Shown here piece after piece: positions 25,203 through 64,000 of a stretch of DNA of 64,000 nt (position 1 is the stretch's first letter; each line of letters opens with the position of its first letter). The DNA lies in NCBI GenBank assembly GCA_951828385.1, contig OX639973.1, positions 3,091,200 through 3,155,199 on the forward strand, written 5' to 3'. The position numbers and the translations under genes are program-made. The notes under the pieces are model-generated. The model worked only from the letters and a program-made list of their open reading frames with translations. It had not been told where the DNA came from and searched no databases. The DNA is from an uncultured Poribacteria bacterium (GTDB taxonomy: Bacteria > Poribacteria > WGA-4E > WGA-3G).

Positions 25203-25228
25203 TGTAGCATAGGCTGTTAGCCTGTGGC
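25203..25228 (+). repeat. GTAGCATA hairpin element, single unit, stem AGGCT/AGCCT
   Basis: TGTAGCATAGGCTGTTAGCC continues to TGTGG. CAT-AGGCT / AGCCT-GTG pairs around loop GTT. It matches the unit of the array at 61553 except that both stem arms differ in a complementary way. Confidence 0.8.
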
Positions 25229-25545: not shown

Positions 25546-25573
25546 TCCACAGACTAACAGTCTATGCTACAGG
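25546..25573 (-). repeat. GTAGCATA hairpin element, single unit, stem AGACT/AGTCT
   Basis: On the minus strand it reads TGTAGCATAGACTGTTAGTC, then TGTGG. CAT-AGACT / AGTCT-GTG pairs around loop GTT. Third stem version of the same element. Confidence 0.8.
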
Positions 25574-32788: not shown

Positions 32789-32966
32789 AAAATTCCTTTC
32801 ATAAATGTAAGCGGATTTAGCGTCTCCGCGCTGTCGGAAGGTTTCCGCGCCGAACATGCTGAGTTTTTCGTATTCCGTTACTTCTGATTCTCGCGCCATT
32901 TTGCGAAAGACGATGCACAACCTAACAGGTTATGCGACACCACCTATAACAGCAGCACGATTTCCA

Positions 32967-51303: not shown

Positions 51304-52215
51304 ATGAAAACACTCATGAATGTGCTGATGCTCTCTGTGGTTATCGTTGGGTTGTGTGGCATTACAGACGCAGAGAATATCGTAACCGATGGACTTGTGA
51401 GTTACTGGACCTTTGATCGTGAGGACATCATTGGGAACACTGTCAAAGATGTTTGGGGCGAAAACAACGCAACAATTGTAGGAACCCCAACGATCATCAA
51501 CGGACACCTCAAAGAGGCACTTAAATTTGATGGTATCAAGGATTATGTGAACCTAACGACTCTCGGCGATTTTGGTGCCAAACTCGATTTTTCTACCGTT
51601 GAAGTGTGGATTCAAACGGATTACAAAGAAACGTGGACAACAATCTTCAAAACTATAGACACTTGCCAGAATCGGGCAACTATGATTTGGGGAATAGATA
51701 TTAACAGAAAGACAGCTGATCTTGAAGATATTCAGAACGATCCTTTTGGTCCTCGGATTATTTTTGCAGAGGATTTCATTCAACTTTACTTAGCATCTTT
51801 TTTCAAGAATAAAGGTGGGTGTTCACTTTCCTTTCTTAGAGGTGAATTTCCGATTTCAGATGGCGAATGGCATCACCTCGTCTATACTAATAAGACTGTA
51901 GATGAAAACGGTACAGAATGGAAGGAACGCGCGCTTTTTATAGATGGAACACTGAATCGGATTTCAGAGTTCATTCCAATAGGTCCGAAAGCTCAGTACA
52001 AATATGTGCCATTCTCTGAACCTGTGTATCTTGGCGCAGGAAATAACCGTGGTAAAGCAGAAGGCTTTTTCAACGGGATTATTGATGAAGTCCGCATTTA
52101 CGATCGAACCCTAACTGAAGCAGAAATCATGCACAATTATCAATCTACTACGGGCCTCACCGTTGACCGGACAGATAAGTTACCAACGGTTTGGGGTGCC
52201 TTAAAGAAAAAATAG
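51304..52215 (+). CDS. Secreted LamG-domain protein 3 of 3
   Basis: A 303-residue protein, closest to copy 1. Signal peptide (ending TDAEN), LamG core (VEVWIQTDYKETWTTIFKTI, DGEWHHLVYTNKTVDENGTE) and the full tail VDRTDKLPTVWGALKKK. The DNA just after the stop (GTATCCATCCGATTCTATGG) is the same as after copy 1, so the duplicated unit includes the 3' flank. It is the last LamG gene before the sigma-propeller series and shares its direction. Confidence 0.9.
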   Translation: MKTLMNVLMLSVVIVGLCGITDAENIVTDGLVSYWTFDREDIIGNTVKDVWGENNATIVGTPTIINGHLKEALKFDGIKDYVNLTTLGDFGAKLDFSTVEVWIQTDYKETWTTIFKTIDTCQNRATMIWGIDINRKTADLEDIQNDPFGPRIIFAEDFIQLYLASFFKNKGGCSLSFLRGEFPISDGEWHHLVYTNKTVDENGTEWKERALFIDGTLNRISEFIPIGPKAQYKYVPFSEPVYLGAGNNRGKAEGFFNGIIDEVRIYDRTLTEAEIMHNYQSTTGLTVDRTDKLPTVWGALKKK

Positions 52216-52270
52216 GTATCCATCCGATTCTATGGCTGCAGAACTTGTCTCATTCTTACATCGGACACAT

Positions 52271-52306
52271 TGCATTTTATGCAACCTTTTGGTCACGCAG
52301 ACGCGT
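52271..52306 (+). promoter_or_regulatory. ECF-type promoter of sigma-propeller gene 1
   Basis: Palindrome TGCATTTTATGCA at 52271-52283, then ACC, 16 bp, GCGT at 52303-52306. The -35 side is TGCAACC, as at the LamG promoter. Gene start 38 bp later, with GGGGGA as ribosome site. Confidence 0.78.
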
Positions 52307-52343
52307 TTATAAGTTACAAAAGTGTTATTTTTGGGGGAGATAT

Positions 52344-55328
52344 ATGAAAACCAGTGATTTCGCGCTGATCCAGCGCACTTTAGACGGTGATCAGAACGCC
52401 TTCACGACGCTCGTGACCAAATACCAGAAATGGGTCCACACGCTTGTCTGGCGGAAGACCGGTGATTTTCACATCGCTGAGGAGATCACACAAGATGTTT
52501 TCCTGAAAGTTTACAAAAAGTTATCAACGTTGAAACCCTCGGATCATTTTACGGGGTGGCTCTATGTGATTGCAACGCGACGCTGTATCGCATGGTTCCG
52601 AAAGAAACGGATCCCGATGACTTCACTCGACGCAACGCCAGTATCAGAGTTAGAGGAGCTCTGCTATACACAATATGAGACGGAACGCAGTGAACAAATC
52701 TCTCTTGAACGCCAACGCGACATTGTCAAGCGTCTCCTCGAAAAATTGCCAGAGAGCGAGCGCACCGTCGTAACGCTGCACTATCTGGCAGAAATGTCTT
52801 GCGAAAAGATTAGCGAATTCTTGGGTGTATCCCCGAACACAGTTAAGAGTCGGCTCCATCGGGCTCGGAAGCGATTGGCGAACCAGGAGCATCTCCTCCG
52901 CGATGCCTCAAGTGTTTTCCAAGTGCCACCAACGCTAACCGAGAACATCATGCGCGAAATCGCCAATCTTAAACCGACATCGCCTTCCGCGAGCAAACCG
53001 TGGCTACCGTGGGGACTCTCTTTCGTATCAACGGTTTTGGTTATCCTGATGATCGGATTCGGCACGCTTGCATTGTCCCGCTTTCAGCAACCCTATAACT
53101 TAGATGCCACATCGGAGATGACAATAGAACTCGTTGACACACCGGTTGTCCTTGAATTGGCACGTAAATCCGACGCGCTGACCCAATTCGGGAATACCGA
53201 TACACCGGGTAAAAACCGTGGATCTGGATTCCAAGCGGAACCTCTGCTCATCGCAGCTGCGCAAGCAGACGAAATCGACCTTTCAACAACAGAACCGCAG
53301 TGGATTCAAGCAAAGGGACCGAGCGGCGTTTCAAGTGCCGGGCTCTTTCTAACATCCGATCAAACCCTTTATGCCATTACCAAAACAGACCTCTATCGAC
53401 TCACAGAAGAAAGGGACGCGTGGATGTTTGTCAGTGCCAGCGGTCCGAATCGGGAATTTGATCCGATCATGGCAGAGCGCGACGACACCCTCTATCTCCT
53501 CACACCCAATGAACTCTTGGTCTCCGTTGATAACGGTAAGACGTGGAATAGCCTCGGCGCACGCCCCGAAGGCAATGCAGTTGCGTTGGTTATCACGGAT
53601 ACGGCGATGTACCTCATCCACAAAACAGAGGTATTTCGGTCCGAGGATGTCGGTAAGCAGTGGGAGCCTATCGGAGAGCACTTGCGAGCCTTAGCCTCGC
53701 AAGTCTTAGCCGATAACAAACTCGAAGAGGTCCGTCCCAATGTTCCTGCTCTTGGGGACTTCCACGCCATTCAGAACATGGTTTTCCGTATATGGGATGC
53801 GCTCGCTATTGACAACACCCTATTTATAGGTACAAGTCAGGGACTTTTCCGACTGACCGATGACTGGGAAAAATTGCCGGTGCCGACATTAGACGGTATC
53901 AAATCGTTGGCAGCCATCGAAGATAGACTCTACGTCGGAACAATCCTCCCGCACGGGCTGCCATCACCGGAGCTCGGGCCCGAACCGTCGGCATCTACAA
54001 CAGTTTTCGCTTCAACCGACCTCGGCGATTCCTGGACCGATATCACGCCGATTAGCCGCGGACATTTTATACGCACTGCTGAGGTCGTTACAGTCGGAGA
54101 CACACTGATATTGACGGGCTACGGTTTACGCTCTCAAGATGGTGGTGAAACATGGATGACGCTTGGCGGAGACCTAAACACGATTAGCGTGTCTCCTGCT
54201 ATCGCGTTAGACGAAAACAATCTTTACACCAGTAGCATCGGAATAAGACGTTCCACTGATGGCGGTGTCACGTGGCACCCCTTTATGACCGGAATCGTGA
54301 ATTCCCGTGTTCCGAATCTGGTTGTATTTAAAAATGTTCTCTACGCACTAACACCTACGAAAATGCTCAAATCCGCAGATGGTGGCGAGTCATGGGAATC
54401 CGACGGCTTAATAAATGCTAATACAAAAGCTCGGCATCCTTCTCGACCTTTTTTTCGTGAAAGTTTTAATGCCTTGGCAACGAAATTTGCCACAGCCGAC
54501 GGTGTTCTTTATATCAGCAATAGTGAACATGATGGTGTCACGCTCTATCGCCTCGCTGATGCTGGCAATGTGTTTCTACCGGTTGAAGATGCCCCAGATT
54601 TTGAAGAAGATACCTTATACACGGAATTGGAGAAAAAGCGGAATGCGGCAATAAGAAGCCGTTACCGGGCCGATATTGACAGAGTGATGAATCAGTGGAA
54701 TGCCCAACAAAAGCGAATCCAAGAAGAACAGGAGACAAATGGAACGTTTACGGTTACTAACGACACCGTCTTCATGGAATACAGACATAAACTTTACAGA
54801 TGGCAGTTCGACGAAACGGGGTGGCACGACACAGGTTTGGAAGATCACGCAGAAATCTCACCGATCGGCAGAAAAGGGCTCGCCCTCGCCGCTTCTGGAA
54901 ACACCGTCTATGCCGGGAAACGGGAAGGTGATCTTTTCCTATCCCAAGACAACGGGGACACTTGGCGCGATGTCACCAAGAAACTCGCCTTTCAGTATGG
55001 ATATTTCAAGGAGATACTGTTTGCAGGATCAACCGTCTACGTCTCAACGGATATGGGTGTCACGAGTTCACATGATGGTGAGACATGGCACGGACTTACC
55101 GATATTGATGCCAACAGGCTTATCATGGATCGGATCGCAGTTGATGGTATGAAGGTTTACGGTGTCTGTGATAGTGGTATCTATGAGGTAGATAGCCAAA
55201 CAAGCACATGGGAACAGATTATCCCAGAACTACCCCATACAGCAATCTCCTTTGCCATTGATGGCAATACGTTTTACATCGGCACAAAGCAAAACGGTGT
55301 GCTCCGTTTTCAACGTGACGGTCAATAA
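52344..55328 (+). CDS. Membrane-tethered ECF sigma factor with extracytoplasmic Asp-box propeller, copy 1
   Basis: The ATG at 52344 has GGGGGA 6 bp upstream; 51 in-frame codons before it come from intergenic DNA. The 994-residue protein has sigma2 (about 8-80: RTLDGDQNAFTTLV, AEEITQDVFLKVYKKL), sigma4 (about 130-180: LPESERTVVTLHYLAEM, LGVSPNTVKSRLHRARKRL), a short conserved linker (NIMREIANL), one membrane helix (about 222-244: LPWGLSFVSTVLVILMIGFG), and from about 330 a chain of Asp-box repeats (SxDxGxTW type: VSVDNGKTW, ASTDLGDSW, RSTDGGVTW, LSQDNGDTW). Fused sigma and sensor in one chain suggests that release or bending of the sigma part depends on what the propeller binds. Signal unknown. 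Confidence 0.9.
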   Translation: MKTSDFALIQRTLDGDQNAFTTLVTKYQKWVHTLVWRKTGDFHIAEEITQDVFLKVYKKLSTLKPSDHFTGWLYVIATRRCIAWFRKKRIPMTSLDATPVSELEELCYTQYETERSEQISLERQRDIVKRLLEKLPESERTVVTLHYLAEMSCEKISEFLGVSPNTVKSRLHRARKRLANQEHLLRDASSVFQVPPTLTENIMREIANLKPTSPSASKPWLPWGLSFVSTVLVILMIGFGTLALSRFQQPYNLDATSEMTIELVDTPVVLELARKSDALTQFGNTDTPGKNRGSGFQAEPLLIAAAQADEIDLSTTEPQWIQAKGPSGVSSAGLFLTSDQTLYAITKTDLYRLTEERDAWMFVSASGPNREFDPIMAERDDTLYLLTPNELLVSVDNGKTWNSLGARPEGNAVALVITDTAMYLIHKTEVFRSEDVGKQWEPIGEHLRALASQVLADNKLEEVRPNVPALGDFHAIQNMVFRIWDALAIDNTLFIGTSQGLFRLTDDWEKLPVPTLDGIKSLAAIEDRLYVGTILPHGLPSPELGPEPSASTTVFASTDLGDSWTDITPISRGHFIRTAEVVTVGDTLILTGYGLRSQDGGETWMTLGGDLNTISVSPAIALDENNLYTSSIGIRRSTDGGVTWHPFMTGIVNSRVPNLVVFKNVLYALTPTKMLKSADGGESWESDGLINANTKARHPSRPFFRESFNALATKFATADGVLYISNSEHDGVTLYRLADAGNVFLPVEDAPDFEEDTLYTELEKKRNAAIRSRYRADIDRVMNQWNAQQKRIQEEQETNGTFTVTNDTVFMEYRHKLYRWQFDETGWHDTGLEDHAEISPIGRKGLALAASGNTVYAGKREGDLFLSQDNGDTWRDVTKKLAFQYGYFKEILFAGSTVYVSTDMGVTSSHDGETWHGLTDIDANRLIMDRIAVDGMKVYGVCDSGIYEVDSQTSTWEQIIPELPHTAISFAIDGNTFYIGTKQNGVLRFQRDGQ

Positions 55329-55375
55329 ATATTCTCTCTGTCTTCCATTTATATTTCCTTGATTTTCCTTTTGCT

Positions 55376-55396
55376 GGCGAGGTTTATAACCTCGCC
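55376..55396 (+). terminator. Hairpin downstream of sigma-propeller gene 1, probable terminator
   Basis: Perfect 9-bp stem GGCGAGGTT-TAT-AACCTCGCC at 55376-55396, followed only by TTTG, so a weak T-tract. It may act as terminator or be one of the palindromic intergenic elements. Confidence 0.6.
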
Positions 55397-55431
55397 TTTG
55401 CATCATTAAAACACACAATCTTCCGAAAAAT

Positions 55432-55466
55432 TGCATTTTATGCACCATTTTGATTTCTATATGCGT
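55432..55466 (+). promoter_or_regulatory. ECF-type promoter of sigma-propeller gene 2
   Basis: Palindrome TGCATTTTATGCA at 55432-55444, CC, 16 bp, GCGT at 55463-55466. Conservation with gene 3 also covers the upstream TCTTCCGAAAA. Confidence 0.8.
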
Positions 55467-55509
55467 CACTATATCATGAAGCCACTATTCTTTCTCAGGA
55501 GATATGATA

Positions 55510-58464
55510 ATGAAAACAAATGATGTAGAACTCATTCAACGTATTTTAGATGGGGATCAAGGCGCATTTACCGTGCTCGTCAATAAATATCAGAAATCCG
55601 TCCACGCCCTGGTCTGGCGAAAGATAGGTGATTTCCATATCGCCGAAGAACTCACACAGGATGTCTTTCTGAAGGTTTACAAAAGGCTATCGACGTTGAA
55701 ACGTCCTGAACTTTTTCCGGGATGGCTCTACGTCATTGCCACGCGGCACTGTGTGTCATGGCTACGCAAAAAGGAACTACCGACAAAATCTCTGGATGCC
55801 ATGTCCACAGTCGAACTCGAAGAAGCCTGCTACGCGCAATATGAAACGAACCGTGGTGAGGCAGCAGCCATTGAACACCAGCGCGAATTCGTCAAACGCC
55901 TCCTCCAAAAGCTGCCGGAGAGTGAACGCACTGTTGTAACGCTCTATTATCTCGCAGAAATGAAGAGTGAGGAGATTAGTATGTTTTTGGGTGTATCGTC
56001 AAACACAGTCAGGAGTCGGCTCCGCCGCGCCCGTGAGCGATTAGAAAAAGAAGAATTTATAGTTCAAGAAGTGCTGGGCAACTTCCAGATACCTACGAAT
56101 CTAACAGAGAATATCATGCGCGAAATTGCACGCATCAAACCGGTATCTACTTCTGTGAGTAAGCCGTGGCTACCGTGGGGACTCTCACTCGCGTCAACCT
56201 TTTTGGTTATCCTGATGGTCGGGATGGGACCTCAGGCATTGTCGCGTTTTCAACAACCCTACAACTTGGACGCGACATCGGAGATGACAGTTGAGTTGGT
56301 TGACGCACCCGTTGTGTTTGAATTGAAACGAGAACCGGATATAAAAAATCAGTTCGGAAAGCGTAATACACCGGGGAAAGGCAGTGGTGCAGGTCCGAGA
56401 ACCGATGCCGGACTGTTGGCAGCAGCACAGGCAGATACCGTAGAGAGACGACAGAGCAAACCGCAGTGGATTCAGAAAAAGGGACCCGTAGGTGGGAACA
56501 TCAGAAGCTTTTTCGTATCATCTCAAAAGGAGGTCTATGCGATTGGAGACGTTGGACTCTACCGATTAACAGGTGATGACAAGAGCGAATGGACCCTTAT
56601 TAACGACTCACTTTCGCCTATTTATGCTGCTAAATCAATGGCAGAACGACGGGATACCCTATATCTTGCCGATAAAACGCATGTGTTAAAGTCGACGGAT
56701 CGCGGCGTGACATGGGAGCCGCTCGGTGAACGGCCACAAGGATATACCGTCGCGCTGCTCATCACAGATCCAATGCAAATGCACCATCCACAGGATGCCC
56801 AGTATGAAATGTACCTTATCCTTTCAAATGGTGTATTTCGTTCGACAGATACTGGCAACACATGGCAAGCGTTTAACAACGGTTTGACGGCACCTAAAAT
56901 ACACGATGCTGCCGCTATTGAAAATGCACTTTTTTTGGGAACGCGCAACGGACTCTATCGGCTTAATTCTGGTGTCTGGGAGAAATTGCCTGTCGCACCC
57001 CAATTTATTGACGCTTTAACAGTCGCTGGCGATAGAATTTACCTCAGGAGCCGAAGGCATTCGCTGTTTACTTCAGATGACTTCGGAGACTCCTGGACTG
57101 ATATAACACCGGCGGAGAGTCAATCATGGGAAACGTCTGTATTATCGCCCAACCTTGTAGCGATAGATGACACCGTTTTAGTTTTCCATGCTGGTCGGTC
57201 ATTACGCTCTACGGATGCTGGCGATACATGGGAGGACCTCGGTTGGAATAACCATACACTTACGTCCAGCAGGTCCCCAGTTGTCGCCTTAAATAAGGAT
57301 ACTTTTCTTATAGCCAACCTAATCAGAATTGGACGCTCCACTCTCGTATCGAAAACAGGCAGTGTCGGACGCTCCACTGATGGAGGCTACACCTGGCATC
57401 CATTTTCAATAGGCATAGCAGAAACCCACGTCCTCCAACTTGCACAAGTTAACGATGTACTCTACGCCATAACTGATGATGGTATCACGAAATCTACTGA
57501 TGGCGGGGAAAGGTGGACGTATATCTTGACCGAGTTATCTCTTCCAAAGCCTCCAAAAAAACCGATCAGTGCACTCGGATTATCAAATATAACAGCGATA
57601 GGAGACTCGCTTTACATGAGAGCGAAACACGGTGGAAGCACAAACTGCCTACTCCGCTTATCTCCAAATATGGATACATTGAGGCATATTGAAGGCATGC
57701 CAGTTTATGTCAACTGGCGCCACGGCGAAAAGTTGGAGAACATAGCAGACACCAGCGTTGCACTTGAACCCAATGAGATAGATCAGACGGAATCGACTCG
57801 CTATCTACTCGGTATCGAAGAAGCCACTACAAGAACAACTGGTGAGTTCGCTATCACTGGTAGCACGTTCTATATTGAATACGAACGCAAACTCTACCGA
57901 TGCTCACACGGCGATCGTAAATGGTACGACACAGGCATGCAAGACACCCCTGTCTCCGACGGCTTTTACGCGACTACGGGTTTCCAAGTCGCTGCCTCGG
58001 GAAAAGTTGTTTACCTTGGCAAAAGTGACGGCAGCCTCTTTCAATCGTTGGATAGTGGTAACACTTGGAAAGACATCACCGCGAATTTTCCGTTGCTACT
58101 TGATAGAACAATATCGCGTACCGAGCTGCTGGAGAAATTACCGCACTTCAAAGAGATCCTATTTGTGGGTAGCACAGTGTATGTGTCAACAAGTGATGGA
58201 GTCGCCATGTCAAACGATGGCGAAAATTGGCGTGTGCTTACCGATGCAGAACAGACACCGATCACAATGCCTCACTTAGCAATTGATGGCACAACCCTCT
58301 ATGGTGTTAACCAAACAAGTGCCTATCAATTACAGAAGAACACGGGAACTTGGATTCAAATTGCACCAGAAATACCTGAACGGGTAACTTCTCTCGTTGC
58401 TGCGGAAAATATTCTCTATGTCGGCACAGAGCACCGTGGAGTCTTGGGGTTACCACTGCAATGA
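55510..58464 (+). CDS. Membrane-tethered ECF sigma factor with Asp-box propeller, copy 2
   Basis: I take the ATG at 55510 because AGGAG is 8 bp from it and too close to the ATG at 55504. The 984-residue protein repeats the layout of copy 1: sigma2 (AEELTQDVFLKVYKRL), sigma4 (FLGVSSNTVRSRLRRARERL), the NIMREIARIKP linker, one membrane helix in LPWGLSLASTFLVILMVGMG, then Asp-box repeats (RSTDTGNTW, RSTDAGDTW, KSTDGGERW, QSLDSGNTW). Up to about residue 310 it is almost identical to copy 4; beyond that it diverges, so the sensor has changed while the sigma part was kept. Confidence 0.9.
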   Translation: MKTNDVELIQRILDGDQGAFTVLVNKYQKSVHALVWRKIGDFHIAEELTQDVFLKVYKRLSTLKRPELFPGWLYVIATRHCVSWLRKKELPTKSLDAMSTVELEEACYAQYETNRGEAAAIEHQREFVKRLLQKLPESERTVVTLYYLAEMKSEEISMFLGVSSNTVRSRLRRARERLEKEEFIVQEVLGNFQIPTNLTENIMREIARIKPVSTSVSKPWLPWGLSLASTFLVILMVGMGPQALSRFQQPYNLDATSEMTVELVDAPVVFELKREPDIKNQFGKRNTPGKGSGAGPRTDAGLLAAAQADTVERRQSKPQWIQKKGPVGGNIRSFFVSSQKEVYAIGDVGLYRLTGDDKSEWTLINDSLSPIYAAKSMAERRDTLYLADKTHVLKSTDRGVTWEPLGERPQGYTVALLITDPMQMHHPQDAQYEMYLILSNGVFRSTDTGNTWQAFNNGLTAPKIHDAAAIENALFLGTRNGLYRLNSGVWEKLPVAPQFIDALTVAGDRIYLRSRRHSLFTSDDFGDSWTDITPAESQSWETSVLSPNLVAIDDTVLVFHAGRSLRSTDAGDTWEDLGWNNHTLTSSRSPVVALNKDTFLIANLIRIGRSTLVSKTGSVGRSTDGGYTWHPFSIGIAETHVLQLAQVNDVLYAITDDGITKSTDGGERWTYILTELSLPKPPKKPISALGLSNITAIGDSLYMRAKHGGSTNCLLRLSPNMDTLRHIEGMPVYVNWRHGEKLENIADTSVALEPNEIDQTESTRYLLGIEEATTRTTGEFAITGSTFYIEYERKLYRCSHGDRKWYDTGMQDTPVSDGFYATTGFQVAASGKVVYLGKSDGSLFQSLDSGNTWKDITANFPLLLDRTISRTELLEKLPHFKEILFVGSTVYVSTSDGVAMSNDGENWRVLTDAEQTPITMPHLAIDGTTLYGVNQTSAYQLQKNTGTWIQIAPEIPERVTSLVAAENILYVGTEHRGVLGLPLQ

Positions 58465-58543
58465 ACTGTAGTGACCAATATTCTTCACTAACCAGATTTT
58501 CGGATGCTCCGTTACCCCATTAAATCCTAAATCTTCCGAAAAT

Positions 58544-58579
58544 TGCATTTTATGCACCACTTCAACCTCCAAAGTGCGT
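58544..58579 (+). promoter_or_regulatory. ECF-type promoter of sigma-propeller gene 3
   Basis: Palindrome TGCATTTTATGCA at 58544-58556, CC, 17 bp (one longer than the others), GCGT at 58576-58579. Confidence 0.76.
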
Positions 58580-58625
58580 TACTATATAATGAAGTCTTAT
58601 TTTTTATTTTTTCGGAGGGAGACAG

Positions 58626-61544
58626 ATGAAAGAGAGTGATGCTGCATTAATTCAACGGACTTTGGATGGAGACGAGGGGGCGTTTACAACGCTCGTCAAG
58701 AAATACCAGAAATGGGTTCATACCCTGGTCTGGCGGAAGATCGGTGATTTTCATACCGCCGAAGAACTCACGCAGGATATTTTCCTCAAGGTTTACAAAA
58801 AGTTATCGACGCTGAAACCGCCAGACCGTTTTCCGGGGTGGCTCTATGTCATCACCACGCGGCACTGTATCACATGGCTCCGAAAGAAGCGCGTATCAAC
58901 GACATCCCTGAATACAATGCCCACAACCGAGCTAGAGGCACTATGTTATGCACGCTATGAGACAGCGCGTGGTGAAGAGGCATCTGCTGAACATCAGCGC
59001 GAACTCGTTAAACGCCTCCTCCAAAAACTACCGGAGAGCGAGCGCACCGTTGTAACGCTGTATTATCTCGCAGAAATGACCAGTGAGGAGATTGGTACAT
59101 TTTTAGGTGTCTCGCCGAACACAATTAGGAGCCGACTCCGCCGTGCTCGTAAGCGATTGAAGGCGCAAGCGCATTTGCTCCACAATGTCTCCAGTGTGTT
59201 CCAATTGCCGCCGACCTTAACCCAGGATGTCATGCGTGAAATCGCTCGTATCAAACCCGCATCGCCTTCCGTAAGCAAGCCTTGGCTACCGTGGGGACTC
59301 TCATTCGCGTCAACGTTCTTGGTTATCCTGATGATAGGGGCGGGCCCGCGTGCGTTGTCCCGTTTTCAGCAGCCCTACAGTTTGGACGCAACATCGGAAA
59401 TGACAATTGAATTAGTCGAGGATCCTGTTCTGCTCGCTTTGGAACTAAAACGGGATTTGAGAAACCAGCATGGGATAACTGGTAACATCGGAAGCAGCAG
59501 CAGTACAGGCACCAAAACCAACGCGAAACTGCTCGCAGCGGCGCAAGCAGATACGACAGCGCAGTTGGAAACAAAACCAAAATGGATACCTGCAAAGGGA
59601 CCGGCAGGCGGAACCGTCAGCAACCTCTTTGTAACATCTCAAAAGGATCTCTACGCTATTAGTGGTACCCGGCTTTATCGATTAGACAACAATAGCACTG
59701 AATGGATGCTTATGAACGCTGGGCTCTCTATATCCCATTGGCCACTAATAGCAGAACGGAACAATCGACTCTATATTGCCACCCAAAAACATCTGTTCGT
59801 CTCAACCGATCGCGGGGCGACGCTGATACTCGTCGGACCCCGGCCAGAGGGACGCGCTGTCGCGTTACTGATTACGGATCCGAGTCAAGTTCGCCGGCCA
59901 CAGGAGGCCCAGTATGGAATGTACCTCGTTCTCACTAAGGGCGTTTTCCGTTCAACGGATGCTGGTAAGACGTGGCACGCATTTAATGAAGGTTTGACCG
60001 CAGCAGAGATACAAGCTGCCGCCGTCATTGACAATGCACTTTTTTTAGGAACGAATCCTCTTTTTTTGGGAACGAACCAGGGACTCTATCGGCTCAATAC
60101 CGGTGTCTGGGAGAAATTGCCCATCGCACCGCCACAAACTATTGAATCGTTAGCAGTTGCTGACAATAAAATCTATTTCAATACCAGGGCGAGAAACGAA
60201 CTGTCCAGTTCGCTTTACGTCTCAAACGATTTCGGAGAGTCCTGGACAGACATAACACCACCGCAGCTGCCTCCGTTTTTTGCCAAACTTGCGGCGATAG
60301 ACGATACGCTCTGGGTAATCGGTGACAGCATCTTAAACTCAACGGATGCTGGCAATACATGGACAGACCTTGGACCCCATGGACGACATGGACAGGCATT
60401 CTCTGTCAACGGCTCCGCTGTCGTTTTGGACAAAGACACCCTTTTTCTCGGCAAGCCAGCGGGCCCGGGCGTTGCACGCTCAGACGACCGGGGCAAGAAT
60501 TGGCGTCCGCTCACAGCGGGCATCGCTGCAACCCGCATCCAAGATCTGGCACAGGTTAACAACGTCCTCTACGCCGTAACCTCTAACGGTATCGCTACAT
60601 CCACTGACGGCGGAACACAGTGGACATATATCCAGCAAGCACTACCATTTTCACCAACCTCCCTAACCGTGTTCGGAGATTCGCTCTATTTCAGAAGAAA
60701 CAAGGGCGACAGTGCAAACGGACTGTTCCACCTACAACCCCATACAGATACGCTGCACCCTGTTGAAGGGATGCCCGTTTACGTAGATGCGAACCCCGCC
60801 CCCCCCGACACAGCGTTGGAGAGAGTGCCAAATGCCGCAGCTGATCGCCCTCCTATCACAATTAAAATTCAAGAAGGAAAGATACGACGAGCCGGTAAAT
60901 TCACCATCAGCGGGGATACCTTCTACATTGAATACGAACGGAAACTCTATCGATGGACCCGCGGTGAACACAAATGGCACGATACTGGCATGCAAGATGC
61001 CCCCGCATTCGGCAACAACTACTTCAACGGTCTCCAATTCGCCGTCTCAGGGAAAGTTATCTACCTCGGAAAAAGCGACGGTAGCCTCTTTCAGTCATTG
61101 GATGGCGGAGACACCTGGCGCGATATTACTGCAACCTTTCCATTTCCACTCGATAGATCAAAATTACCCTTAATCAAATTGTCGGAGGTCCAGGAGATGA
61201 TGAGAAAATTGCCCCATTTCAAGGATATCGTCTACGTGGGGCGCACGGTGTATATCATAACAAACGACGGGAGTGCCATGTCAAACGATGGAGAGAATTG
61301 GCAGCCACTCAGAAATGAAAAATCCGTACCGATCACTCTCTCCGAGTTAGCCGTTAAAGGGACAACCCTCTATGGTGCCTCCAAAACAGGCGCGTATCGC
61401 TTAAACAACGAGACAAACACTTGGATACAGATTGCTCCAGAAGTACCCGGAGGCGTGACATCACTCGTGGTAGCGGACGATGTGCTCTATGTCGGCACAA
61501 ATTACCGTGGCATCCTACGTTTACCCCTACAGGGGCTCGAATAA
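58626..61544 (+). CDS. Membrane-tethered ECF sigma factor with Asp-box propeller, copy 3
   Basis: A 972-residue protein with GGAGGG just upstream of the ATG. It has sigma2 (AEELTQDIFLKVYKKL), sigma4 (LGVSPNTIRSRLRRARKRL), the NxxMREIARIKPASP-type linker (VMREIARIKP), one membrane helix (FASTFLVILMIGAGP) and Asp-box repeats such as RSTDAGKTW, NSTDAGNTW, TSTDGGTQW and QSLDGGDTW. An in-frame 21-bp tandem duplication at about 60039-60080 gives FLGTNP twice with a one-residue change. It ends only 10 bp before the 30-bp hairpin array. Confidence 0.9.
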   Translation: MKESDAALIQRTLDGDEGAFTTLVKKYQKWVHTLVWRKIGDFHTAEELTQDIFLKVYKKLSTLKPPDRFPGWLYVITTRHCITWLRKKRVSTTSLNTMPTTELEALCYARYETARGEEASAEHQRELVKRLLQKLPESERTVVTLYYLAEMTSEEIGTFLGVSPNTIRSRLRRARKRLKAQAHLLHNVSSVFQLPPTLTQDVMREIARIKPASPSVSKPWLPWGLSFASTFLVILMIGAGPRALSRFQQPYSLDATSEMTIELVEDPVLLALELKRDLRNQHGITGNIGSSSSTGTKTNAKLLAAAQADTTAQLETKPKWIPAKGPAGGTVSNLFVTSQKDLYAISGTRLYRLDNNSTEWMLMNAGLSISHWPLIAERNNRLYIATQKHLFVSTDRGATLILVGPRPEGRAVALLITDPSQVRRPQEAQYGMYLVLTKGVFRSTDAGKTWHAFNEGLTAAEIQAAAVIDNALFLGTNPLFLGTNQGLYRLNTGVWEKLPIAPPQTIESLAVADNKIYFNTRARNELSSSLYVSNDFGESWTDITPPQLPPFFAKLAAIDDTLWVIGDSILNSTDAGNTWTDLGPHGRHGQAFSVNGSAVVLDKDTLFLGKPAGPGVARSDDRGKNWRPLTAGIAATRIQDLAQVNNVLYAVTSNGIATSTDGGTQWTYIQQALPFSPTSLTVFGDSLYFRRNKGDSANGLFHLQPHTDTLHPVEGMPVYVDANPAPPDTALERVPNAAADRPPITIKIQEGKIRRAGKFTISGDTFYIEYERKLYRWTRGEHKWHDTGMQDAPAFGNNYFNGLQFAVSGKVIYLGKSDGSLFQSLDGGDTWRDITATFPFPLDRSKLPLIKLSEVQEMMRKLPHFKDIVYVGRTVYIITNDGSAMSNDGENWQPLRNEKSVPITLSELAVKGTTLYGASKTGAYRLNNETNTWIQIAPEVPGGVTSLVVADDVLYVGTNYRGILRLPLQGLE

Positions 61545-61552
61545 ATAGACAT

Positions 61553-61911
61553 CTTTGTAGCATAACCTTTTAGGTTGTGTCCCTTTGTAGCATAACCTTT
61601 TAGGTTGTGTCCCTTTGTAGCATAACCTTTTAGGTTGTGCCTCTTTGTAGCATAACCTTTTAGGTTGTGTCTCTTTGTAGCATAACCTTTTAGGTTGTGC
61701 CTCTTTGTAGCATAACCTTTTAGGTTGTGTCTCTTTGTAGCATAACCTTTTAGGTTGTGCCTCTTTGTAGCATAACCTTTTAGGTTGTGTCTCTTTGTAG
61801 CATAACCTTTTAGGTTGTGTCTCTTTGTAGCATAACCTTTTAGGTTGTGTCTCTTTGTAGCATAACCTTTTAGGTTGTGTCTCTTTGTAGCATAACCTGT
61901 TAGGTTGTGCC
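61553..61911 (+). repeat. 30-bp hairpin tandem array, 12 units
   Basis: Unit TTTGTAGCATAACCTTTTAG continues GTTGTG(T/C)(C/T)C. Each unit holds CATAACCT-TTT-AGGTTGTG, an 8-bp stem allowing one U-G pair. Units differ only at one or two positions near the end; the last has loop GTT. They are contiguous, with no spacer sequence. Confidence 0.95.
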
Positions 61912-61912
61912 A

Positions 61913-62028
61913 GGTAGTTATAAGTTATAAATTAACTTACTTGTGGCAGTCCAGTTCATTGTAACTGCTCCACAAACCCTCTTAACTGACAATGACAACT
62001 CTCACTGCGAGGCAAACTGACAACTAAT
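61913..62028. repeat. Foldback intergenic repeat (CAGTTATCAGTT family), copy H, degraded
   Basis: TATAAGTTATAA words on the left and CTTAACTGACAATGACAACT, CTGACAACTAATT on the right. No strong stem-loop in the middle; the copy is less regular than A, C or G. Confidence 0.6.
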
Positions 62029-62030
62029 TA

Positions 62031-62065
62031 TGCATTTTATGCACCATTTTGATTTCTATATGCGT
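62031..62065 (+). promoter_or_regulatory. ECF-type promoter of sigma-propeller gene 4
   Basis: Palindrome TGCATTTTATGCA at 62031-62043, CC, 16 bp, GCGT at 62062-62065. Nearly identical to the gene 2 promoter. Confidence 0.8.
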
Positions 62066-62105
62066 CACTATATCATGAAGCCCCTATTCTTTCTCAGGAG
62101 ATATG

Positions 62106-64000
62106 ATGAAAACAAACGACGTTGACCTCATTCGACGTGTTTTAGATGGCGATCAAGGCGCATTTACCGCACTCGTCAATAAATATCAGAAATCGGTGCA
62201 CGCCCTCGTCTGGCGAAAGATAGGCGATTTCCATATCGCCGAAGAACTCACACAGGATGTCTTTCTGAAGGTCTACAAAAGACTCTCCACGTTGAAACGT
62301 CCTGAACTTTTTCCGGGATGGCTCTACGTCATTGCCACGCGGCACTGTGTGTCATGGCTGCGCAAAAAGGAACTACCGACAAAATCTCTGGATGCCATGT
62401 CCACAGTCGAACTCGAAGAAGCCTGCTACGCACAATATGAAGCGAACTGTGGTGAAGAAGCAGCCATTGAACATCAGCGCGAATTCGTCAAACGCCTCCT
62501 CCAAAAGCTGCCGGAGAGCGAACGCACTGTTGTAACCCTGTATTATCTCGCAGAAATGAAGAGTGAAGAGATTAGCATGTTTTTGGGGGTATCGTCAAAC
62601 ACAGTAAGGAGTCGGCTCCGCCGCGCCCGTGAGCGATTAGAAAAGGAAGAATTTATAGTTCAAGAAGTGCTGGGTAACTTCCAGATACCTACGAATCTAA
62701 CCGAGAATATCATGCGCGAAATTGCACGCATCAAACCGGTATCTACTTCCGTGAGTAAGCCGTGGCTACCGTGGGGACTCTCACTCGCGTCAACCTTTTT
62801 GGTTATCCTGATGGTCGGGATGGGACCTCAGGCGTTGTCGCGTTTTCAACAACCCTACAACTTGGACGCAACCTCGGAGATGACAGTTGAGTTGGTTGAT
62901 GCACCCGTTGTGTTTGAATTGAAACGAGAACTGGATGTCAGAAATCAGTTTGGAAAGCGTAATACGCCAGGGAAAGGCAGCGGTGCGGGTCCGAGAACCG
63001 ATGCCGGACTGTTGGCAGCAGCACAGGCAGATACCGTAGAGAGACAGGAGACAGAACCGCAATGGATGCCAACAAGGGGACCGGAAGGCGGCGGTGTCAA
63101 GAACCTGTTTGCCACATCTCAGAAAGAGGTCTACGCGATTGGAGGCACTCGACTCTACCAGTTAGCAGATGACAATACTGGATGGACACTCATTAACGCC
63201 GCACTCCCCTTTACACCTTATAGCACGCCGATGGCAGAAGGGAAAGATACCCTCTATATTGTTACTGAGACTGACCTGCTCGCATCAACGGATCGTGGCC
63301 TAACGTTGCATTTCCTCGGTCCACGGCCACGCGGGCGCGCCATCGCCCTGCTTATCCCCAGCAGATTACGCTGGTCGAAGGATGCACAGATCGAAATGTA
63401 CCTCGTCCTCGCAGACGGTGTGTTTCGTTCAACAGATACTGGCGGCACCTGGCACGCCTTTAACGATGGTTTGACCGCACCAAAGATACATACTGCTGCT
63501 GCCGTTGAAAACGCACTCTTTTTGGGGACAAAGCACGGACTCTATCGACGCAATTCAGGGGTATGGGAGAAATTACCCGTCGCACAGTCACAATCTATTG
63601 ACGCATTAGCAGTCGCTGGCGACACAATTTACATCAGTGCTCCAAGGCAGAAAGATCAGGAATCCGCTGTGCTCTTTGCCTCAAGCGACTTCGGAGCGTC
63701 TTGGATTGACATAACCCCCACGAATCTAAAAACAGGAATGTCACCACTCAAAATCGGGTCTGTCAAGCTTATCGCGGCAGGTGAAATGCTCTTAGTGCTC
63801 GGTGCGGGTGTGTTAGGTTCACGAGATGCTGGCGATACATGGGAATACCTCGGTTTTCACAGAGACGCGCTTGCAGTCGGCATTTTCTCAGCAGTCGCTT
63901 TAGATGAGAATACTTTTTTTATCGCAGGAGCGGATAAACTCGGACGTTCAACCGATGGCGGTCATAGTTGGCATCAGTTCACAGCAGGTATAGCGGAATC
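62106..64000 (+). CDS. Membrane-tethered ECF sigma factor with Asp-box propeller, copy 4, 3' truncated by window edge
   Basis: Start at 62106 (AGGAG 6-7 bp upstream; an ATG at 62103 is also possible). The frame is open to the end of the window, giving 631 residues. The sigma2/sigma4 part (AEELTQDVFLKVYKRL, LGVSSNTVRSRLRRARERL), the linker NIMREIARIKP and the membrane helix are virtually those of copy 2. After GDTVERQ-type sequence near base 63040 the proteins separate: this one continues with MPTRGPEGGGVKNLFATSQK, then Asp-box repeats ASTDRGLTL, RSTDTGGTW and ASSDFGASW. Confidence 0.92.
   Translation, partial: MKTNDVDLIRRVLDGDQGAFTALVNKYQKSVHALVWRKIGDFHIAEELTQDVFLKVYKRLSTLKRPELFPGWLYVIATRHCVSWLRKKELPTKSLDAMSTVELEEACYAQYEANCGEEAAIEHQREFVKRLLQKLPESERTVVTLYYLAEMKSEEISMFLGVSSNTVRSRLRRARERLEKEEFIVQEVLGNFQIPTNLTENIMREIARIKPVSTSVSKPWLPWGLSLASTFLVILMVGMGPQALSRFQQPYNLDATSEMTVELVDAPVVFELKRELDVRNQFGKRNTPGKGSGAGPRTDAGLLAAAQADTVERQETEPQWMPTRGPEGGGVKNLFATSQKEVYAIGGTRLYQLADDNTGWTLINAALPFTPYSTPMAEGKDTLYIVTETDLLASTDRGLTLHFLGPRPRGRAIALLIPSRLRWSKDAQIEMYLVLADGVFRSTDTGGTWHAFNDGLTAPKIHTAAAVENALFLGTKHGLYRRNSGVWEKLPVAQSQSIDALAVAGDTIYISAPRQKDQESAVLFASSDFGASWIDITPTNLKTGMSPLKIGSVKLIAAGEMLLVLGAGVLGSRDAGDTWEYLGFHRDALAVGIFSAVALDENTFFIAGADKLGRSTDGGHSWHQFTAGIAE

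Follow-up and report, generated by a model that had tools for sequence, protein, structure and literature searches.

The window, a stretch of 64,000 nucleotides from an uncultured Poribacteria bacterium, ends within a tandem of sigma factor genes. Positions 52191-64000 together with locus L119 hold five such genes in tandem, in each of which an ECF sigma domain is joined to a BNR/sortilin-like propeller domain. The sigma family is large and odd: a search with its propeller part gave 54 matches genome-wide. Separating genes 3 and 4 of this tandem, 12 bp past the stop codon of gene 3 and in the sense of that gene, lies an array of short hairpins. The features discussed below are as follows.

58626-61544, plus strand: sigma-propeller gene 3, an ECF sigma domain fused to a BNR/sortilin-like propeller, the upstream neighbour of the array.
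61540-61556, plus strand: remnant of the left part of a MITE, AATAAATAGACATCTTT, overlapping the stop codon of sigma gene 3 and the same, base for base, as the sequence to the left of the REP in complete 126-bp MITEs with terminal inverted repeats (TIR MITEs).
61553-61911, plus strand: hairpin array of 12 head-to-tail 30-bp units, each a 7-nt leader followed by GTAG and CATAACCT-(T/G)TT-AGGTTGTG.
61557-61579, plus strand: first REP core, 23 nt made up of the GTAG tag and a 19-nt hairpin; further cores follow at 30-bp steps up to 61887-61909.
61887-61913, plus strand: final REP core, whose GTT loop and CCAG 3′ edge are those of MITE-borne single copies; taken as a founder-like unit.
61914-61990, plus strand: right flank of the array, the later part of which aligns to sequence adjoining the right side of a TIR MITE at the corresponding junction of genome G013 (L334).
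62106-64000, plus strand: sigma-propeller gene 4, the downstream neighbour, which extends beyond the window end.
25204-25226, plus strand: single family REP of the CATAGGCT-GTT-AGCCTGTG type.
25548-25570, minus strand: single family REP of the CATAGACT-GTT-AGTCTGTG type.
32916-32938, minus strand: REP-like unit with GTCG replacing GTAG.

Tandem Repeats Finder reported the array at 61552-61909 (period 30, 11.9 copies, 97% matches, score 674), and GTAG cores start at 61557 + 30n in all 12 units, confirming the twelve 30-bp hairpin units originally noted at 61553-61911. The hairpins had been called identical. This holds for the stem, CATAACCT/AGGTTGTG, which is common to all units and contains one T.G pair, third from the base; the loop is TTT in units 1-11 and GTT in unit 12 only. 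The 7-nt leaders are pyrimidine-rich and variable, running from CATCTTT through two copies of TCCCTTT and three CCTCTTT/TCTCTTT alternations to three copies of TCTCTTT. The alternation is the trace of one- and two-unit duplications, and the array is indeed changeable DNA, as had been anticipated. Its regular spacing and palindromic units recall a CRISPR or some other functional repeat array, but the 7-nt spacers are nearly identical instead of unique and single copies are scattered genome-wide, leaving this reading a negligible chance.

Folded as single-stranded DNA, a single unit reached -4.0 kcal/mol, compared with -0.65 for shuffled sequences (z -4.3). The RNA of the whole array can fold in two ways. 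Besides the expected chain of 12 hairpins there is a single long fold-back, which is the minimum-free-energy structure (-159.5 kcal/mol vs -74.9 for shuffles, z -17) and forms because the units are near-palindromic.

The array had also been proposed as a recombination hot spot that could explain gene duplication nearby. It does separate two paralogues, and repeated units are able to recombine. We compared 17 other sigma-propeller loci (L330-L346), none of which carried a family REP; both the sigma3 and sigma4 genes were present in seven. In the close loci among these, the junction between the two genes is a short gap in L330 (G042) and L341 (G045), and in L334 (G013) it holds a TIR MITE without a REP, beside which the right flank of our array aligns. 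Since the sigma genes are already tandem in three relatives without the array, the array is not the cause of the gene duplication. The other three junctions of the five-gene tandem likewise contained no exact REP core, and we regard a hot-spot role as very improbable. Judging from these alignments, the array, seen in this genome only, is younger than the sigma-gene tandem.

Nor do arrays generally accompany sigma-propeller genes: a propeller gene end was present within 400 bp of only two of the 92 REP clusters examined in this genome. Both of these are arrays, so that two of the seven arrays of at least four units are near a propeller gene, compared with 0.6% of random positions, a coincidence noticed post hoc. 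The second one, at 2298953 (L109), consists of five units, which follow a sigma-propeller gene at a distance of ~130 bp and share its sense.

The array unit belongs to a dispersed family. The pattern GTAGCATANNCTNNNAGNNTGTG occurred in 187 exact copies in the 6,656,312-base single-contig chromosome, of which the window covers 3091200-3155199; the reversed control gave none. These copies form 113 same-strand clusters, 88 of which are single units. As had been noted, single units also occur elsewhere in the window, at 25204 (+), 25548 (-) and, with GTCG for GTAG, 32916 (-). Apart from the last, the GTAG foot is present in all window singles and in 12/12 array units; the census pattern is itself anchored on GTAG. 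Clusters are extragenic in 87 of 92 cases (ORFs of at least 120 aa). The exact pattern was found in 38/38 genomes of the genus, with 1 to 345 copies each, and class-wide in 54 of 82 genomes, comprising the genus, 16/20 genomes from other genera of the family and 0/24 from the remaining class. A contig scan returned at least 108 stretches with the pattern, all among records titled Poribacteria.

These properties resemble those of the GTAG-REPs, described as extragenic palindromes of 20-40 bp with an unpaired GTAG foot, a short loop and complementary stem subfamilies, which adjoin RAYT genes; loci combining a RAYT with its specific repeat were named REPtrons (PMC3733652, Di Nocera et al. 2013). 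The Poribacteria family shares the palindrome, GTAG foot, stem subfamilies, short loop, extragenic location and RAYT neighbours with that superfamily, as well as the tandem reiteration reported there for Pseudomonas GTAG-REPs (PMC3733652). It differs from the superfamily as described there in that many copies ride in a TIR MITE (PMC3733652). Poribacteria, known mainly as marine-sponge symbionts, are not mentioned in the main text of the GTAG-REP study (PMC3733652), and none of the Poribacteria papers retrieved by literature searches describes this REP family, judged by titles and the beginnings of abstracts.

The hairpin is conserved through compensatory changes. At 102 collapsed sites from the 2.09 Mb of this genome that were fetched, two variable stem pairs were Watson-Crick in 102/102 and 99/102 cases (shuffled means 51.6 and 38.9), with no G-U at either. 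Among 211 deduplicated sites from other genomes, part of which were found by a pattern fixing purine/pyrimidine at the first pair and leaving the second free, the values were 209/211 and 204/211 (shuffled means 106.5 and 65.4), with one G-U at each; the T.G pair at the third position of CATA types is fixed by the search pattern itself. Because G-U is so scarce at the covarying pairs, selection seems to act on a DNA hairpin more than on RNA.

To delimit the dispersed unit we kept the 140 of 418 sites, all in dissimilar contexts, that remained once copies resembling each other in their flanks had been removed. What these contexts have in common is confined to about -5 to +3 relative to the core, indicating that a unit of ~25-30 bp is itself dispersed. 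Pyrimidines prevailed at -5 to -1; position -1 was T in 89% of contexts, and position +1 was C in 77%. A CT dinucleotide lay within 10 nt upstream of the core in 110/140 contexts, compared with 73/140 in the next ten bases, a difference confounded by base composition. E. coli TnpA-REP cleaves at a CT adjoining the REP (PMC8266576), and by analogy the upstream CT excess is only a hint of a similar cleavage site.

The array might alternatively work as RNA, being transcribed from sigma gene 3, with hairpins that terminate the mRNA or make it more stable, uncoupling genes 3 and 4. Consistent with this, it begins 12 bp past the stop codon in the sense of the gene, its RNA fold is far more stable than shuffles, the family is extragenic with the downstream gene on the REP strand in 56/87 clusters (p 0.0097), and an RNA-level role has been put forward for other REPs (PMC3733652). 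Against it stand the three orthologous junctions that do without an array, the near lack of G-U at covarying pairs, the absence of a U-tract after the units and of any matching Rfam family, and the orientation of the upstream neighbour, which agreed with the REP in 50/87 clusters, not significantly. We therefore consider an RNA function unlikely, and the array may still have a side effect on the mRNA. Taken together, these results indicate that the array unit is very probably a GTAG-type REP, a dispersed mobile palindrome, and the array its local tandem expansion, not built for the sigma genes.

Two RAYT transposases of the genome exceed the curated score, and each adjoins different GTAG-REPs of its own; a third, longer RAYT group falls below the NF047646 cut-off. 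Among the 30 best-scoring RAYT loci (L121-L150) scanned with the core pattern, L149, a member of the long subfamily, carried three family REPs and L131 two, located ~200 and 430 bp beyond the matched stretch; the other 28 had none. The REPs of L111 and L149 were noticed first, and 20 further loci of the long subfamily (L151-L170) were then selected on score and length, ahead of any scan of their flanks. The fetched flank contained a family REP in 19/20 of these, compared with 1/20 loci of other RAYT groups (L171-L190), where the single REP was 2,079 bp away; in this comparison some stretches were cut short by contig ends. The sole miss in the long subfamily was L170; L150, a shorter version of the same gene, was also without a REP.

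Each RAYT subclade carries its own stem/loop variant. On a tree of 22 genes, with agreement judged by inspection, subclades corresponded to flanking REPs of the types CATAGGCT-GTT, CACAWACT-TCC, loop TTT and CACAAACT-GTT. Other candidates were rejected: of the IS200/IS605-type genes L009-L016 only L013 has family REPs, ~1 kb away, and the RAYTs of L101 and L102 each have a different REP of their own. The RAYT at L102:900-7000 has tandem and inverted REPs (GTAGTAGTGCGATTTATCGCAC). Its neighbours include a Cas2-like gene of 105 aa and a Cas6-like gene of 328 aa, which we take to be CRISPR-associated, as well as what is presumably a reverse-transcriptase-like ORF.

By sequence and by placement, the long group looks like RAYT. 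All 14 aligned members matched NF047646, with E-values up to 0.01, and the profile's best PDB match was 4er8 (TnpA-REP, E 6e-5). All 14 members have, without variation, the residues H129, H131, W190, R200, Y211 and N215 (numbering of L160), and with them the HuH motif and the tyrosine. By hand count on the alignment, W190, R200, Y211 and N215 correspond to W94, R104, Y115 (presumably the catalytic residue) and N119 of 4er8. In TnpA-REP, W94, Q95 and R104 were placed in the GTAG-contact region, the role of W94 being unclear, and N119 is essential (PMC6006769). The Poribacteria RAYTs thus share with the E. coli enzyme (NF047646; PDB 4er8) the HuH motif, the tyrosine and the W/R residues aligned to that region (PMC6006769). 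They differ in being longer (228-331 aa as called), in having an N-terminal YRRNLPHIQxPGATFFxTF region and in falling below the curated cut-off: L160 scored 66.8 against the 80 bits needed for formal equivalog membership, which weakens the RAYT-REP model.

The model is also weakened by the RAYTs of this genome. The two that belong to the long subfamily are both of the CACAWACT-TCC subclade, and neither matches the stem type of the array, whose own REP variant may be orphaned here. A strong long-group match (more than 200 bits) was found in 18 of 38 genomes of the genus, all 38 of which have REPs; either REPs outlast the RAYT, or draft genomes miss it. The drafts G040 and G018, for instance, gave no cognate RAYT match and have 345 and 118 exact REPs.

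We also found that several single REPs lie inside a longer repeat bounded by TATAGTGAA...TTTACTATA. The 2.09 Mb covered contained 60 such TIR-bounded elements, 38 of them exactly 126 bp long, and the orientation of the enclosed REP was always the same. TA-duplicating MITEs such as Correia elements have TATAGTG-type terminal inverted repeats, and the Poribacteria element resembles them in these repeats and in its length of ~126 bp; it differs in enclosing a REP and in that its transposase was not found. In the search for an autonomous partner, five long TIR pairs enclosed an ORF of more than 150 aa, and the two inspected contained host-type genes. The 126-bp MITE (e.g., L018, L021, L037-L039 and L041) encloses a second long hairpin besides the REP, and a second MITE-like element with ends TAGGACTTACGCA...TGCGTAAGTC has the same REP inside (L020, L024 and L045). 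Some MITEs contain 2, 3 or 5 REPs and are possible intermediates of array growth.

The REP family could thus be mere cargo of a DDE-type MITE, with RAYTs uninvolved. The 60 elements with their one REP orientation speak for this, as do MITE signs in 43 of 92 REP clusters (the window array included) and a hint, by eye, of a TA duplication in L340/L342 compared with L343. However, five clusters have a second MITE (TAGGACTTACG) and 44 have neither, and the REP flanks the RAYT subfamily in 19/20 loci and varies by RAYT subclade. Carriage by MITEs as the whole explanation is accordingly quite unlikely. Array growth is not confined to MITEs either, since MITE signs are present in only two of the seven arrays of at least four units (the window array and 3805306) and in none of the other five.

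A REPIN is a replicating unit made of paired inverted REPs, and the Poribacteria family uses the same sort of building block. Unlike REPINs, its neighbours within 80 bp in this genome are mainly direct (74 vs 6 inverted; relaxed pattern, 204 copies) and the array is head to tail, so that it does not qualify as one. Some of the six inverted pairs probably reflect a single asymmetric REP that the pattern matches on each strand, 4 bp apart, as at L111. In a sister-genus genome (G064, contigs C2, C10, C25, C33 and C42), REPIN-like inverted pairs were seen with starts 34-37 bp apart. In most GTAG-REP families inverted neighbours outnumber direct ones (PMC3733652); the mainly head-to-tail Poribacteria copies differ from these, which also weakens the RAYT-REP model.

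REP strands are, in addition, regionally clustered along the chromosome, with 27 runs where 47.7 were expected (113 clusters). This polarity was detected among copies in intact MITEs (6 runs vs 13.2 expected, n 28) and outside them (21 vs 29.9, n 64), and MITE-borne and free copies agreed locally in strand in 39/43 cases. TIR MITE strands are likewise polarised (15 runs vs 25.4). REP-B, another REP family of this genome, shows no polarity (31 runs vs 23 expected), and REP-A, with five copies, is too small for a strand test. GC skew looked promising as the cause in a sample of 40 windows and was rejected when local windows were available around 97 of the 113 clusters, as these showed no significant difference (p 0.14 by Mann-Whitney, p 0.49 by Fisher test).

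The flanks of the array bear on its origin. It lacks both terminal inverted repeats of a whole TIR MITE, with only 17 bp of the left interior remaining and the rest of the MITE missing on the right side. Because the array starts with these 17 bp, growth by slippage from one MITE-borne REP is the most likely course. A MITE bearing one REP would have landed behind sigma gene 3 and then decayed, and replication slippage or unequal exchange would have raised the 30-bp unit to 12 copies; we consider an origin by either of these two processes most likely. The MITE part of this scheme is weakened by the lack of an intact right part at the array and of MITE signs at five of the seven arrays. By analogy with studied REP systems, the RAYT would act on single-stranded DNA, recognising the hairpin with its GTAG foot and copying or moving the REP in that form. 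Under this scheme the array would be a side product of selfish DNA, and it has no proven role for the sigma genes.

The family is dispersed, adjoins RAYT genes, is carried in MITEs and has expanded locally. These observations extend the RAYT-REP system to sponge-associated Poribacteria, where hairpin variants follow transposase subclades with unusual clarity. The resulting set of natural RAYT-REP pairs could serve to test how transposases choose hairpins. The observations also show REPs travelling inside a MITE and expanding into arrays, and they remove a false lead, the array as a device of the sigma-propeller genes. Tentatively, and with considerable doubt, we suggest that the family might spread in two independent ways, by a cognate RAYT that acts on single-stranded DNA and as cargo of a TIR MITE, and that its polarity might mark a replication-coupled or orientation-selected placement which GC skew no longer shows. 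If so, REPs could outlive their matching RAYT, and tandem arrays would be seeded by MITE-borne copies.
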